Origin: Erythrobasidium yunnanense
Taxonomy: Eukaryota > Basidiomycota > Cystobasidiomycetes > Erythrobasidiales > Erythrobasidiaceae
Assembly (NCBI GenBank): GCA_001600175.1
Contig: BCJC01000002.1
Location: 1,246,318-1,310,317 of the forward strand
Direction of reading: 5' to 3'
DNA length: 64,000 nucleotides
Shown here: positions 49,795-57,811 of the stretch, piece after piece
Numbering within the stretch: position 1 is the stretch's first letter
How the letters are laid out: each line of letters opens with the position of its first letter
Notes under the pieces: model-generated
What the model was told of the DNA's origin: nothing
The model's database searches: none
What the model saw: only the letters and a program-made list of their open reading frames with translations
Program-made: the position numbers and the translations under genes

Positions 49795-51930
49795 ATGAGC
49801 AGGCATCGCAAGGTCGCAGCTTCTCGAGGATCGAGGAGGACATCCTGGCGGCCGTCGACGCCCAAACTGGCAGTGCTCCTAGGGCTTGCTACGTTTCTGG
49901 CATCATTTCGAGACGCGACAGCAGCGTCGCCAGCATCGTGGAAGGATGGCCTGCAAGCGCCGCGAGCTGACTTCTTCGAAACGGTTCTAGAAGGGAACGT
50001 AGCGAACCAGAAGAGTTGCAAGGTCAGCCAGATGCGACACGTTGGTCATCTGGAAAGAATGGTCAAGGCTGATCCGATCAAGTCAAACAGCCAACGGGCC
50101 TCATACACGATGCATGCTGCGACTATCAAACAGTAGAGGACGTCAACAACGACCTCGCAAGCCGGCTCGACGAGATTATTCAGCTCCCTTTCTTCCGGTT
50201 CCAGAAGGTTAACTTGTTTCAAGAGTGCGCATTCTGGCAGGAAGATGGTAGCTGTATGAACCGTGCATGCGCAGTGCAGGAGACGGACGAGGTAGGCCAA
50301 GCCACATCCATGTTTGAGCCACGTATCGATCGGGCTGACCATGTATGCTTTGTCCTTTCTTTCAGGAGCATGTCCCAGAAGCATGGAAGTCTGGAACGCT
50401 TGGCAAAGTGAAAGAAGCGCTCGCTTTCCCGAATGCGCTGCAAGGAGCCTTGGCTAAAGACTCGGACTTCTGTGTACTTGACGAAGATTCGCCTTCATCG
50501 GACGGCATATACGTCGATCTATACGAGAACCCCGAACGCTTTACAGGCTATGCTGGCGCATCTGCCAACAAGGTCTGGAAGGCCATCTACGAGGAGAACT
50601 GCTTCGATGTAGTACCTTTCATGGCACCCTCTCGGGGTCAAGAGAGTGGAGGAAGCGGATATGTGCAAAGCAGCCTTCTTGGAGACAAGTCACGCACTGT
50701 GCGAAGCCTGATGGGCAATCTTGGCTTAGCCGCACCGCGAGATACGCAAGACGAGGAGCAGTGTCTGGAGAAGCGCGTCTATTATCGCTTGATCTCGGGT
50801 ATGCCTGCCTGCAAGTGATCTCATCCATCTACTAATGTGCTCTCTCCGCCAGGCCTTCATGCGTCTATCTCGATACATATTTGCGCAGAATACCTTGATC
50901 AGGAGACTGGACAATGGAAACCTAATCTCGCTTGCTTTATCACCCGTATAGCAGAACATCCTGAACGCTTACAAAACGTCTACTTCAACTATGTTCTCAT
51001 GCTTCGCGCACTCACCAAAGCTGCACCTTACCTCCGTCAATATAACTACAACACTGGAGACGAGCAAGTCGATGCACGCACAAAGCAGCTTGTCACAGCA
51101 CTATTGGACAAGGCAGAGTCATGTCAGGCTACCTTTGACGAGACGAGCATGTTCAGCGGACCTGAAGCGAAGGTGAGGAGCGATGCATTTGCTTTCGACA
51201 GGCTTATGCTGAAATGCGCCTGTGTCTTACCTAGATCTTGAAGCAAGAGTTCAAGTCGCACTTCCGGAACGTCTCTCGCATCATGGACTGTGTAGGCTGC
51301 GACAAGTGCCGTCTATGGGGCAAGACCCAGGTCACCGGCGTAGCGACTGGCCTCAAGCTACTCTTCTCATGTGACGATGCATCTTCTTCGACTTTCAACA
51401 ATGAACTCGAGCTCCGAAGATCCGAGATCGTAGCATTTATCTGGACTCTGCACAGATTCTCAGAAAGTCTGGCTGCCGTTGAGCAGTTCAGAGATATGTG
51501 GGCGAAGCGCGACCAAGCACAAGGGACGCCGTTGGTTCTTCGACAGCCTTCGCAAGACGAGATCATGCAGGATGCAGTCGAGAAGGTGGTTCCCTCTCAA
51601 TCTGTGCCGTCGCCTGAAACGGAAGGCAAGGAGCACGCAGAGCCAGCTATCTTCTCTCCGCCCTCACGTTATTCCGATACGCCTGCTTCCGCCGGCGAAG
51701 CAAGGCCTGTTCAATCGCAAGCTGCTGTGGAGCCGGATCTCGTCAACACAGTCGAAGACTCGGTCTATCACGCCTCTCCCGAGAGCACTGCCATTGGTCC
51801 ACGCTTGTCTGGTATTTTGGCCAAACTCTACAATGCCTGCCGGTCAAGTATTGCAGCATGCTTTGCAATTGTCGAGCGGAGTTTATCGTTTATCAGTAGT
51901 CTCGCTAGCGACCGCAAAAGCGAGTTATGA
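49795..51930 (+). CDS. ERO1: ER oxidoreductin ERO1
   Basis: Flavoenzyme that passes electrons from protein disulfide isomerase to oxygen in the ER lumen. I chose [18 protein letters not shown], which leads into a hydrophobic segment [19 protein letters not shown] as signal or anchor. After an intron at about 50023-50089 the hallmark [14 protein letters not shown] appears, then [28 protein letters not shown] with the shuttle Cys pairs, and [13 protein letters not shown]-binding [10 protein letters not shown] follows. A further exon has the active-site [12 protein letters not shown] (CxxCxxC). The C-terminal tail beyond [12 protein letters not shown] is about 145 residues longer than the core and ends in a moderately hydrophobic stretch ([20 protein letters not shown]) that could hold it to the membrane, as the yeast tail does. 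Confidence 0.94.
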
Positions 51931-52143: not shown

Positions 52144-55100
52144 CTATTGCGCGTTGAAAGGGTACCTCGGCTTCCGTGGAAGACGCTTTGCTATCGGATC
52201 TTCGTTCAAGAATAGGCGCCGCTTCTCCACAGCTCCGTGCCCTCTTCTCAGCTCAACCTCAGGAAGGTCCAGCAAATGCTGCTCGTTGGCCTCTTTCGAT
52301 CGCCTTTCGACCAGCTGATCATCTTCGTAAGACCAGCAAGACTTGTAGGCTGTCTGAACGGATAGAGGAAGGATGTTGAGATCTTGTGAACCCTCGCTTG
52401 CTTGACTCTTGGCGACATCGTGAAGAGCTATCTGTCTGGCGATGTCAAAGTCCCCCGAGCAGGCACTAGTGGAGGTGGAATTATCATCAGTCTCTCTTCG
52501 ATCGGACTGATGTGTTGTACTTACTACCACAAATCGACAGCGTCTTCCCTGGACAGACCAGTTGATCTGATATGTTGCTTGATCGCTGCATGCCTTTCAG
52601 CAACTTGTTGCTGTACGACTTCTGAGAGCTTCGCCTTATGTCCTGCACTTGAAGCCACCGAGGAGCCTCTAGCCTTACTCTTACTAGCAGACGAGACGCT
52701 CGACCGCTCAAGCACAGGCGCCATCGATGATCTTCTGGGCTGTTGAGGCTGTATCTCTATCGCTTGTATTATCTTCTCAGGAGATCTACTCGTCGATTGC
52801 CGATGAGCGATCACAGCTGAGGCCGGACTCCGCTTCGTGAGCGTACTTGAGGCCTTTTTGCTGGATGAAGAGGAGCGTGGCTTGATTTGACCCGGACTCG
52901 AAACGCTATCGTCATCGTACACAGGCCGTCGCTTGCTACTGCTAGACTGTAGTGTGGCAGCTTTGGACGTCGCAACTCTGTCCAGCCAGTCCTTCTGCAC
53001 CGCTCTGGCGAACATTCTATGAACCTCCAAAAGCTGCTGCAGAGCTTCGTCATTTGAGGCGACCTTGCTTGCTTGCATTTCGCGGTTGTAGTCTAAAGCG
53101 CCTTCGTCTTGAGCGAGATTATGGAGGCTATCAACGATGGCGTCTACGTCGAGTTCGGGAGTCTTCGAAGTGATAAAGTCCGGATCCTCTTCCAGAGTGT
53201 CTTCGCGTCCATGCCGAAAGGCGTCTCCTGCCAACTCTGCCTGCGAATCCTGGGCTATATTAGGATACTGCCGATCCTGCAGAAGTCGAGCTACTTCTTC
53301 ACTGCTGGAATATTCTTGTTTGATGATGGGTGAAAGGGGGACGGTCGAGGTAGAGAGCCCAGGCACGAGCTTGACGAATTCGAATCCTTCATCCGATGCA
53401 GATTCTGCTTCGGAAGCCTCGGAATGACTGTCGAATACGCCCGTTGCATCTTGTGTCTGATTTACTGTTCGCGGGATATCCCCTTCATCTTGGTCATCGA
53501 CTACCATATCCTGGATCGTATCGATTGTTGCCGTGGCGTCGGCCTCGGCCTCCATCATCTGCTCCAGCGGTATGCTGGCATCTACCATCTCTATACCTTC
53601 CTTCTGTGCGGACGATCTATACGTGGAATTAATGTCGTTCAGAGGCTGTTCATCCTCTCTCCTTGTCTCGGTCTCCAGGAGACCTATCCCATCCTCTTCG
53701 CCATTATTCAGTGCTGCTCTATGTTCGTCATCTTCCTGAAGCATAGTCTCATCCTCATGCTCTTCGCCCGAGGCTTGAGAGCTTAGCTCGAATCTAGGAA
53801 GGCGGGCCTTCCTGCGCTTCTTCGCACCCACTACAAGCCGCGATATAGTAGGTGCTTGTTCATCCTGAATCAGCGGATTTGAAGGCTCATCGACCGGATT
53901 TTGGGTGTCTTCGGCGAGCGGAGCAGCGGATGTCTTGCCTTTAGGGGTTGACGACCTGAACAGAGTGCGGATGCGCTCCTGTGTATCTGCCGAAATTCCT
54001 TGGATCCCTTCCAGCACACCTGTGTGACCTTGCCGAGCAGCATCTTCGTCAGATTCGGGTGATAGACTGCGCGAGCTCGCATGGCTGGATGGCGGAGGTG
54101 GATCTGAAATCGGAGCAGCTTCCTCCGAGTATTGAGTAAACATTTCTTCGGGTTCCTGACTTCCAAGATCAGACTTATCGTGATCATCTACACTCCGCTT
54201 GCGTTTCCCTGCATGAGTCCTTTCGTCAGGTTGGGCTTGTATTGCGCCAGACTGAGAGGCCAACTTGGTCGGTGTATTGTCCATCGATCCTGCTGTCGTT
54301 TGTTCGACTGCAATCTGTTGCTGAACTAGCTTCCGAGCCGAGATGAAGTCTGGCAACAGGTTCTGGGAAGGTGAAGGCGTTCCTGGCAGAAATGAGGTGC
54401 GCACTCCATTGTTCCGTGTCGGAGTTGATGTAGAGGTTGAAGCGGCGTTCGGCTGTAGAGGCGATTCTTCTCCGTTCCTCATGAGAGTATCGATGGCTTG
54501 TCTGGCGTTGCCTGTGAGACTGAGGGGTCAGGGTGAAGCATGTATCAGTCTTGCCGTACTCACCACCCTTCCGCATGACTTTCCTTCTAGCCTCATCAGC
54601 TACTGCTGTCACGACATCATCTTGGGCGGGCTAGTCAATGAAGATTGAGTGAGTGAGGTTGCTATGGTTGCTCGTTGGAAAGCATACCTTCGTGTGCAGT
54701 ACTGGCTTTTCTTCGATCCTGCTACCTTTTTTCTCCTCCTCGTCCAGCAATATATCGCGGATCCAGGCAGCCGATAGCAGATCAAAGTTCCTGGCGGAGG
54801 GCGACCAATCACTCTCGCCTTTGGAAGAGAGGTATTTGAAAGAATGTACAGACAGGACCAGCTTGCGTTCTTTCGGGCCCAGATCTAGTTGAGCACTCGA
54901 AGGTACCCGGTCGACGTAGGTTGAAGTGTACTGGAAACGAAATGCTCGGATCTGAAAGAGGCCGCCTTTGTATGAAGTGAAGGATTCGTGGGTTCTATCG
55001 AGATATTATATCAGATTGATGAAGTGCTCGCTTGTATACAGCCGCGCTGCACCTTTCGAAATCGTTGATGGCAGACGCCTCAAACTTGACGAGCACTCTG

Positions 55101-55366
55101 TACTGCTTGTCGTGAACATGAGCCCATACGCCGAGCTGGTCATAGTCGGGCTTGCGCTTGTCGCGGTAGCTTGTGAACTGGGAGGGACAGAACAGGGAAC
55201 ATATCGAGATTCTAATCAATGGCCAAGAATCTTGCGTATTAGACAACTCGCTAACCTGGACGATCTGGCTGTAGCCGCCTTTGTGCTCGAAGCTGAGATT
55301 GACGCGATGCTTGTTTCTGTAATCTTCGACGGCTTTGGACAGCCAGGGAGAGATGGAGCTCGACAT
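52144..55366 (-). CDS. TPP1/Est3-like OB-fold telomere protein candidate
   Basis: The start MSSSISPWLSKAVEDY resembles the 'x-PWI-x3-L' opening of TPP1/Est3 proteins. An intron at about 55187-55241 joins GGYSQIVQ to FTSYRDKRKPDYDQLGVWAH, then YRVLVKFEASAINDFE. The next intron (about 54998-55056) gives NDFER-THESFTSYKGGLFQI, then KERKLVLSVHSFKYLSSKGE, like the last OB strand and helix of TPP1. From memory, yeast Est3 has ILVEFSQECVSNFERTH at the matching place. After the OB domain comes a long acidic, Ser-rich disordered region (52524-54482) and a C-terminal exon with KRRLFLNEDPIAKRLPRKPR. In shelterin, TPP1/Tpz1 recruits telomerase and links Pot1. Not verified by structure or search. Confidence 0.55.
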
Positions 55367-55527: not shown

Positions 55528-57811
55528 ATGTTCGCCAAAGCACCGCGCTTCACTGCTGCGCCCGACAGCGGCGTCCCTGGTCCTGCAGCCTACACGATCC
55601 TCTCGCCAGAAAACAGAAAGAAAGGCGCATTTCTCGAGAAAGACAGGCGCTTCAAGGACGTCCAGAACAATGGAGTTGGTACGCAATGGCTCACCTACGA
55701 TGCGAAGATGGTTTCCTAGTGTTTTGACGGTAAACAACACAGAACTCGCGCCGGCAAACGACGATGGAATGGCGCACAACAAGCTCAAAGCGAGTACTAA
55801 CACTAACAGTAATGAGATAGCGAAGCACAGGGTGAGAGCTCGCGCTATTCCTTCAGAGAACAATCGCTGATATGCCGGCACACGTGATCTACGTACAGCT
55901 TGATGCTCTACGAACGCAGCTCACCTCGGAGCACGCAAGGGAGGTCAAGGTACTGGAGCAGCAGATAGCACAACAGACGCGCAAGATCGCCGAGTTACAG
56001 GCTGCTCAGACAGAGGTTGAAAAGCTCAAGAAAGAGTCTAGTAGGTTGCCGACTTGTTACGAGCAAACAGTACTGATTGCTATGCTTATTCATAGAATCT
56101 TCAACAAGACGCGAGCATGCCCTTCAGTCCGATCTCGAGAAAGCGAAAGAGCAGCTGGCCCTTCTTCCTGGACTGCGCCAGAAATTCGACGATCTCGTAG
56201 CGGAGCATGCGTCTTCAAAGACTAGACATACCGAAGCGAAAGACAGCTACAAGTCTCAGATAGTAAATCTAGAGAAGAAAGTCAAGATGATACAAGAAGC
56301 GGAAGCAAAGCTGAGCGCAGAGGGTATAGCGAAGACACGCGAAGTCGGTAGATTGGGTGATGAGCTGGGAAGATTGCGAGCAAGTAAAGGAGATGTCGAG
56401 CAGAAGCTCAAAGAGAAGCAAAGGGAGATGGAAGAACAGGATATCAAGTACGACCAGCTGCAGCTTGTTCTTCAGGAACAGCGGTCACGCTTTGCCGACT
56501 TGGAGACAGCAACTCGCAAACAAACCTCTTCTCTATGCGCATATGCTTCCGCCCATATCGCAAGCCTCCATGAACAGCATCGTTCCACGCAGTCTCGGCT
56601 CCAGCAAGACAACCTATCTTCCGCCTTTCAGATAACACGATTAGAGCGCAAGGTGATGGAGAAGGAAGATCAAGTAACTCAGCTGATAGAGCTCATCATG
56701 TGTCTCGAAGAAGAGAAGGAAGTGCTGCAGGAAAGGAACGAAGAGCTCGAGGATGATCTGGAAGAACTGTCAAACACGCTCAATATCGACAATGCCCGGT
56801 ACGACAATGTTCGCAGATATTATGAGGCTCAGATTCAGGATGAGCATGAGGCGGCGGAGGCGCTAGTCGAGCGCTATGAATCTGAACAAGGCGAATGGAG
56901 GGTGGAGCGCGACTACTTCGATGCGTGCATGAAAGAGGGCAAACATCACGCATATGCACATGAGCAAGCTATCAAAGCACTGGAAGAGATGGGAATGCAG
57001 AAGTATATGCTTGAGCGGGATCATGCCAAATTGACGGAAGAGATGCAAGCTGCACAAGAACTGTTGGCCGAACAAGAAGTAGAGATGGAAGAGAAGCAAG
57101 CGGCACTCACAGCCCTGCAAGCGGAACATGCGCAAGTTCAGGAACGACTCGACTCCACCGTTGCTGCGAAGAAGGCTCAAGTAGCAGAGTTGGCAGAACA
57201 GCGAGAGCAGAGCCGGTACCTCGAAATTTCTATCCAGGCTGCTCAAGCAACGGAGCATCATCTAAACGATCAGATCGAGACTCTGACGAACGAGCTTGTC
57301 GATTACGCTTCATTGCAAGAGACGCACGAGGAGCTGCTGAAAGCATTGGACAGACTCATGCGGACAGCAGACCTTGCTGAAGAGGATGTGAATCAGCTGG
57401 CACAGCTCAATGCTCAGCTAATTGGTCATAACAACCCTGGACAGAGGATAAGACATATGGATAGGCTCCGCAACGAGCTTGCGGGGCTCAAGAAGGTGCG
57501 AATGCAACACGCTCCATCGGAAGGATGACACTGACCTTTCGTCATCATCAAAGCAACACATAGCGACCCAGTCCGAGCTGTCTGCCGCAACGAGGCAGAT
57601 CGAAGCTCTGCGATCGGAGATCAGCGCCTATAAAGCTGTAGGCGGAGCAACAGTGAAGCATCTACAAGCTTCAAGAGCCGCAGGGCCACCTCGAAACCCG
57701 CTCGCAGCTAGTATTGCCAAGCAAGCGGGTTCTCGGGAGAATCACGCATTACAGGCGCCAGCGAACGCGCTGAAGCAGGTTGGAAGGATGTCTCTCGCGG
57801 AGCTGCGGTGA
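55528..57811 (+). CDS. HMMR/RHAMM-like coiled-coil protein
   Basis: The start MFAKAPRFTAAPDSGVPGPA, then AYTILSPENRKKGAFLEKDR, resembles the RHAMM/HMMR N-terminus (FPKAP...RF...PGAYDV...F.KS.RF). Introns join QNNGV to ELAPANDDG, AKHR to LDALRTQLTSEHARE, KKES to KSSTRREHALQSDL, and LAGLKK to QHIATQSELSAATRQ. Most of the protein, about 600 residues, is continuous coiled coil. Near its end LAQLNAQLIGHNNPGQRIRH then MDRLRNE matches the C-terminal 'LLGHQN..QKIKH...LK.E' block of HMMR that binds TPX2/centrosome partners. The tail ends KQVGRMSLAELR. Probable spindle-pole or microtubule role by homology. Confidence 0.7.

Follow-up and report, generated by a model that had tools for sequence, protein, structure and literature searches.

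The C-terminal end of human TPP1 is a TIN2-binding motif. The corresponding fission yeast protein, Tpz1, is a partner of Pot1 in which a long linker separates an N-terminal OB-type domain from an interaction end at the C-terminus. Its OB fold is reported to contact telomerase in fission yeast (PMC4936895, PMC13419711), and the available text of PMC9333443 places the motif that holds Pot1 at about residues 190-212, behind the OB fold. Further along the chain lie a Ccq1-binding motif (residues 425-470) and, near the end, the Poz1-contacting residues W498 and I501, as described in PMC9333443 and PMC6686008. Poz1 in turn is described as connecting Pot1-Tpz1 with Taz1-Rap1 (PMC9333443). The RCT (C-terminal module) of Rap1 is characterized as a docking module; in budding yeast it binds Rif and Sir proteins, in fission yeast Taz1 and in mammals TRF2 (PMC3487762).

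Here, we describe a gene from Erythrobasidium yunnanense whose product is probably a TPP1-family shelterin subunit, with a telomerase-contacting OB-like N-terminus, a POT1-holding segment, a linker and an RCT-like end. This explanation was preferred on the strength of a TPP1-family match, the consistency of the gene model, the resemblance of the C-terminus to an RCT, and the presence of POT1, TERT and Rap1 genes. The likeness to Tpz1 is one of layout; in contrast to the Ccq1- and Poz1-binding end of Tpz1, the protein terminates in an RCT-like region. The window, which denotes the whole 64,000-nucleotide stretch analysed, spans positions 1246318-1310317 of contig C2 in a 20.9-Mb genome of ten contigs.

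The gene is read from the minus strand, from 55366 to 52144, and the spliced model of six exons and five introns encodes a protein of 971 residues (Table 1). All five introns have GT..AG borders. Intron 1, whose length is a multiple of three, contains no stop codon and could therefore be retained, while an unspliced intron 5 leads immediately to a stop codon (TAG at 52526-52524). Using a codon bias trained on ten open stretches in the window, six of them matched by Pfam and four unscanned, we found that the best of the three frames was the modelled one in 6/6 exons. Short pieces make this measure noisy: best frames lie at 0.14 to 0.35 per codon in exons and 0.12 to 0.29 in introns, and certain intron frames equal those of exons. 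Expression and splicing of the gene are given here as predictions from sequence. The preliminary description had drawn two introns, both of which hold, although its count falls short of the revised model, which places three more introns further downstream.

Table 1. Predicted exons and introns of the TPP1-type gene, in window coordinates.
Feature	Position	Strand	Description
Exon 1	55256..55366	-	ATG at 55366-55364; residues 1-37, PWL opening
Intron 1	55178..55255	-	78 nt, GTTAGC..CAG
Exon 2	55053..55177	-	VWAHVHDKQYRVLVKFE..NDFE; terminates within an Arg codon
Intron 2	54995..55052	-	58 nt, GTGCAG..TAG; interrupts FERTH
Exon 3	54688..54994	-	TH..GGLFQI..KLVLSVHSFKYLSS..AAWIRDILLD
Intron 3	54631..54687	-	57 nt
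Exon 4	54564..54630	-	directly behind the OB-like region
Intron 4	54512..54563	-	52 nt
Exon 5	52528..54511	-	long Ser- and acid-rich linker; last residues GLSREDAVDL form the start of the RCT-like region
Intron 5	52466..52527	-	62 nt, GTAGTA..TAG; interrupts the RCT-like region
Exon 6	52144..52465	-	RCT-like body ACSGDFDIA..CWSYEDDQL..GHGAVEKRRLFL..PRYPF; stop codon 52146-52144

The downstream (3') neighbour of the gene is ERO1, on the plus strand and ending at 51930, and the window also encodes an Atg4-type peptidase C54, a Cef1-type protein (Myb_Cef) and a Sec61-type SecY. Upstream (5') and head-to-head with it, at window positions 55528-57528 on the plus strand, lies a gene whose long product looks like a coiled coil and matches HMMR_C only below threshold (20.4 vs 28.6 bits).

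The N-terminus very probably belongs to the TPP1 family. Spliced residues 1-186 matched the Pfam TPP1/ACD model (PF10341) at 36.7 bits (E 4.5e-9), above the curated cut-off of 26.5, and an 865-residue version of the protein without exon 6 also passed the cut-off at 31.6 bits. Splicing is what brings the match to light, as had been foreseen: the motifs PWL, VWAHVHDKQYRVLVKFE, NDFERTH, GGLFQI and KLVLSVHSFKYLSS all fall on the minus strand in a single consistent spliced frame, and FERTH straddles a splice junction at which an Arg codon is split AG/A between the end of exon 2 (55053) and the start of exon 3 (54994). None of the unspliced pieces reached the PF10341 cut-off: the open frame across exons 1-2, with intron 1 read through, scored 20.4 bits and the open frame of exon 3 alone gave no PF10341 match. 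Removing intron 2 and keeping intron 1 yielded 34.2 bits, which the excision of intron 1 lifts to the full score. When the genome was searched with PF10341 at E up to 10, a single candidate was scored and a single place reported, namely exons 1-2 of the TPP1-type gene; at E 0.001 the same search was empty, because exons were scored one by one.

The OB-like region measures about 165 residues and is predicted to adopt an OB fold. In the PDB (177,635 distinct sequences, E up to 10) the only two matches were to Est3, the budding yeast telomerase subunit, as 2m9v (E 0.1) and 9swn (E 0.12), both covering residues 53-83 and centred on FERTH. The local alignment to yeast Est3 scored 73, where the maximum among 10,000 shuffles of Est3 was 63, and the two proteins have the PW, V.A...D, LV.F and FERTH positions in common; Est3 D86 pairs with D60 of the TPP1-type protein, and FERTH with FERTH. 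Past FERTH the alignment is gapped, such that the TEL-patch residues of Est3 (S113/E114) have no assignable counterpart. A PDB profile search built from the region together with Est3 returned no human TPP1 or Tpz1 chain, and the kinship to these two proteins is thus drawn from the Pfam family, whose model bears the name of human TPP1/ACD. Three weak glycosyltransferase chains, neither TPP1 nor Tpz1, appeared beside Est3 in this profile search. A Cdc6_lid match (E 0.012) fell below its own cut-off and was dismissed as chance, and an NCBIfam search gave nothing useful.

That an unrelated protein, OB-like or not, might resemble Est3 by accident is scarcely credible. The PDB match taken by itself is weak, and the profile built with Est3 did not extend to human TPP1 or Tpz1; the family score well beyond the PF10341 cut-off is a strong counterweight, and none of five controls made from the 169-residue region, four shuffled and one reversed, matched TPP1. 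These results bear out the TPP1/Est3 family call of the preliminary description.

A further alternative concerns the two names in that call. A telomerase holoenzyme subunit of the Est3 kind, as opposed to a shelterin subunit, would agree with Est3 being the sole PDB hit and with a FERTH that is identical letter for letter. Est3, however, is a tailless protein of 181 residues with neither linker nor RCT, whereas the protein described here adds a long linker and a C-terminal module, proportions that fit TPP1/Tpz1 better. The genome moreover encodes a homologue of POT1 (40.6 bits), the partner of TPP1, and we regard the Est3-like reading as improbable. Under the preferred assignment to TPP1, the segment encoded by exon 4 would, by analogy, occupy the location of the Pot1-interacting motif of Tpz1.

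Behind this segment the chain continues into a linker that had been described as acidic and Ser-rich, a fair if mild characterization: residues 166-845 contain 16.6% D+E, 12.6% Ser and 11.6% K+R. The linker reading frame contains no convincing Pfam domain (best E 0.88). This, together with a single transcript that is predicted from sequence, leaves room for a model in which two genes have been merged, a short TPP1 homologue made of exons 1-4 and part of exon 5, and a downstream gene for an RCT-like protein. Against it, exon 5 is one uninterrupted open stretch of 661 codons with coding bias in the modelled frame, it carries on the frame of the TPP1 exons, and the RCT-like match already begins at its end. 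A merger of two genes is therefore quite improbable, and we treat the locus as one gene.

The tail had been expected to hold Poz1- or TIN2-binding segments. What we found at the extreme C-terminus instead was a region overlooked in the earlier account, formed by the end of exon 5 (..STGLSREDAVDL) and by exon 6 (ACSGDFDIARQ..CWSYEDDQLVERR..LLDL..GHGAVEKRRLFL..PRKPRYPF). Among 24,736 Pfam families, the spliced C-terminal 135 residues matched a single one with E up to 10, Rap1_C (PF11626), at 15.6 bits (E 0.017) and over profile positions 6-84 of 84. Since this score lies under the curated cut-off of 24.2, we describe the C-terminus as RCT-like and not as a family member. Exon 6 alone scored 14.3 bits, the end of exon 5 alone gave no Rap1_C match, and an alternative intron 5 donor three bases upstream reduced the score to 14.0. 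Of five control versions of the C-terminus, four shuffled and one reversed, none yielded Rap1_C; across ten control sequences one drew unrelated families at a best E of 0.04, and hence an E of 0.017 is by itself no proof.

The genome also encodes a separate Rap1, on contig C7 (Myb_Rap1 E 2e-12, Rap1_C 29.5 bits), which allowed a comparison within one species. The local alignment between the C-terminus and the RCT of this Rap1 scored 71, compared with a maximum of 57 among 5000 shuffles, and in BLASTP against the same Rap1, a one-sequence search, the RCT region came top at 30.4 bits (E 2e-4), with 116 aligned columns of which 29% are identical. The window and ten loci supplied 1162 translated segments with a minimum length of 50 residues; ranked against exon 6, these came in the order exon 6 itself, then Rap1 (71), then a segment at 50. 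Common to the two proteins are ACSG, GSQ, W[ST].E[DE]D, LLD, G...VEKR..[FY]L, PR and PF. We consider the RCT-like end likely to be genuine, and an RCT fold and its binding partner are predicted from these resemblances.

Several results weigh against the RCT reading. A whole-genome protein search with exon 6 retrieved exon 6 itself only, and in the genome search with Rap1_C (E up to 10) the true Rap1 was the sole candidate scored, with the TPP1-type gene absent. No Rap1 emerged from the PDB when it was searched with the C-terminus by itself or with a profile of the two RCTs; the two-RCT profile drew Myb chains (E 0.15 and weaker) through W[ST].E[DE]D. The organism's own Rap1 RCT behaved in much the same way, reaching yeast Rap1 in the PDB at E 0.35, behind Myb chains with a best E of 0.013. 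Myb chains share the W..EED motif, and a match to W[ST].E[DE]D alone is for this reason not specific; searched against Pfam, the C-terminus returned no Myb family. Compared as whole proteins by phmmer, the TPP1-type protein and Rap1 reached only 4.6 bits, in a segment partly made up of low-complexity linker. A single-sequence AlphaFold model of exon 6, folded as its unspliced translation with the first two residues derived from the end of intron 5, was too poor for use (pLDDT 55.3, pTM 0.17).

These observations define the main alternative for the C-terminus, in which the gene is an ordinary TPP1/Tpz1 orthologue ending in a short helical binding motif and the likeness to Rap1_C is a matter of chance, of Myb-like sequence or of low-level helical similarity. 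The score below the Rap1_C cut-off, the failure of exon 6 to recover Rap1 genome-wide or of the C-terminus to do so in the PDB, and the attraction of Myb chains by the two-row profile would all agree with it. On the other hand, the lone family returned by Pfam is a shelterin one, matched over nearly its full profile and across an intron, and the alignment to the organism's own Rap1 exceeded 5000/5000 shuffles and ranked best after exon 6 itself among the translated segments. We therefore judge an ordinary orthologue unlikely and continue with the RCT-like end as the preferred reading. The region shares with the RCT of Rap1 both the profile match and the motifs listed above, but it differs from Rap1 in being carried by a TPP1-type protein, for pieces of which Pfam returned no BRCT or Myb domain, and in its sub-threshold score.

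The other components of the telomeric machinery are partly represented in the genome. TERT was recognized by Telomerase_RBD (64.2 bits), with an RVT_1 fragment under its own cut-off. The TERT gene lies at C2:1326454-1326681 (L002, L015), on the same contig as the TPP1-type gene, about 25 kb from it and just beyond the window; a random place would be equally near about 0.2% of the time, a proximity noticed after the fact. Genome searches for TRF (PF08558) and for TIN2 (PF14973, TINF2_N), both run without a working positive control, gave no match. A degenerate telobox pattern produced two poor matches and no convincing partner.

The telomeres themselves are divergent from TTAGGG. Four tandem copies of TTAGGG occur nowhere in the genome, and neither TTAGGG nor CCCTAA was present in a single copy within the 20 contig ends (1.5 kb each, two of them partly masked). 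The repeat is instead an 11-nt unit, TTTACAGAGGG, at 10/20 contig ends (L004-L013, L016-L025), most of which also contain 10-nt TTACAGAGGG units, and its G-rich strand points toward the contig end. Among the matches listed in a literature search, none was by its title a fungal telomere paper with a unit of the TTTACAGAGGG type. In the 150 bases compared, the end of C6 (L021) and the start of C9 (L012) carry identical sequence in opposite orientation, and the start (L013) and end (L025) of C10, a 57.9-kb contig, carry a shared sequence in inverted orientation.

An exact 17-nt telomere-like match was also seen at six internal places (L033, L034, L035, L040, L041 and L045), with L035 masked there. 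By eye, L033 and L034 resemble short repeat tracts adjoining splice-like sites. L041 holds CTCTGTAAACCCTCTGTAACC, about two repeats with unrelated flanks, and could be a candidate telomerase RNA template; an Rfam search of the six loci, one of them masked at the match, found no telomerase RNA.

Based on these comparisons we propose how the protein may work. Binding to telomerase and to POT1 is inferred from sequence, and contact with telomerase would be made by the OB-like domain (about residues 1-165), as it is by the TPP1 TEL patch and by Est3. The segment directly behind it would retain the POT1 homologue at the single-stranded overhang. A linker of nearly 700 residues would then lead to about residues 855-955, an RCT-like module akin to the one at the end of Rap1, and this end may dock TPP1 directly onto a duplex-telomere-binding protein; Rif1-like proteins or other partners of Rap1 are alternative candidates for its ligand. 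Direct bridging of this sort, with TPP1 docked straight to the duplex binder, is suggested by analogy with the RCT of Rap1, which in fission yeast and mammals attaches Rap1 to that binder, and we hold it tentatively.

Equally tentative is a broader evolutionary scenario, in which TPP1 gained the RCT of Rap1, a single protein came to replace the bridge of TIN2/Poz1 and Rap1, and the telomere repeat drifted to TTTACAGAGGG; the outcome would be a naturally short-circuited shelterin. Pan et al. (2015) reportedly engineered minishelterins in fission yeast, in which an artificial link bypasses the Rap1-Poz1 bridge. Those are engineered constructs, unlike the natural gene described here. While the TPP1/Est3 family to which the N-terminus belongs is known, its combination with an RCT-like end was not met with in the literature searched: among the matches listed from open-access work on shelterin, TPP1, Est3, Tpz1 and Rap1, no title or abstract start mentioned a TPP1-RCT protein, a scope that does not establish priority.

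If the RCT-like end is true, it would raise the questions of whether TPP1 binds a duplex-telomere protein directly and whether the usual bridge was lost. The linkage between single-stranded and duplex telomere would then become testable in a natural rearrangement, in which one protein could do a linking job that is divided among several elsewhere.
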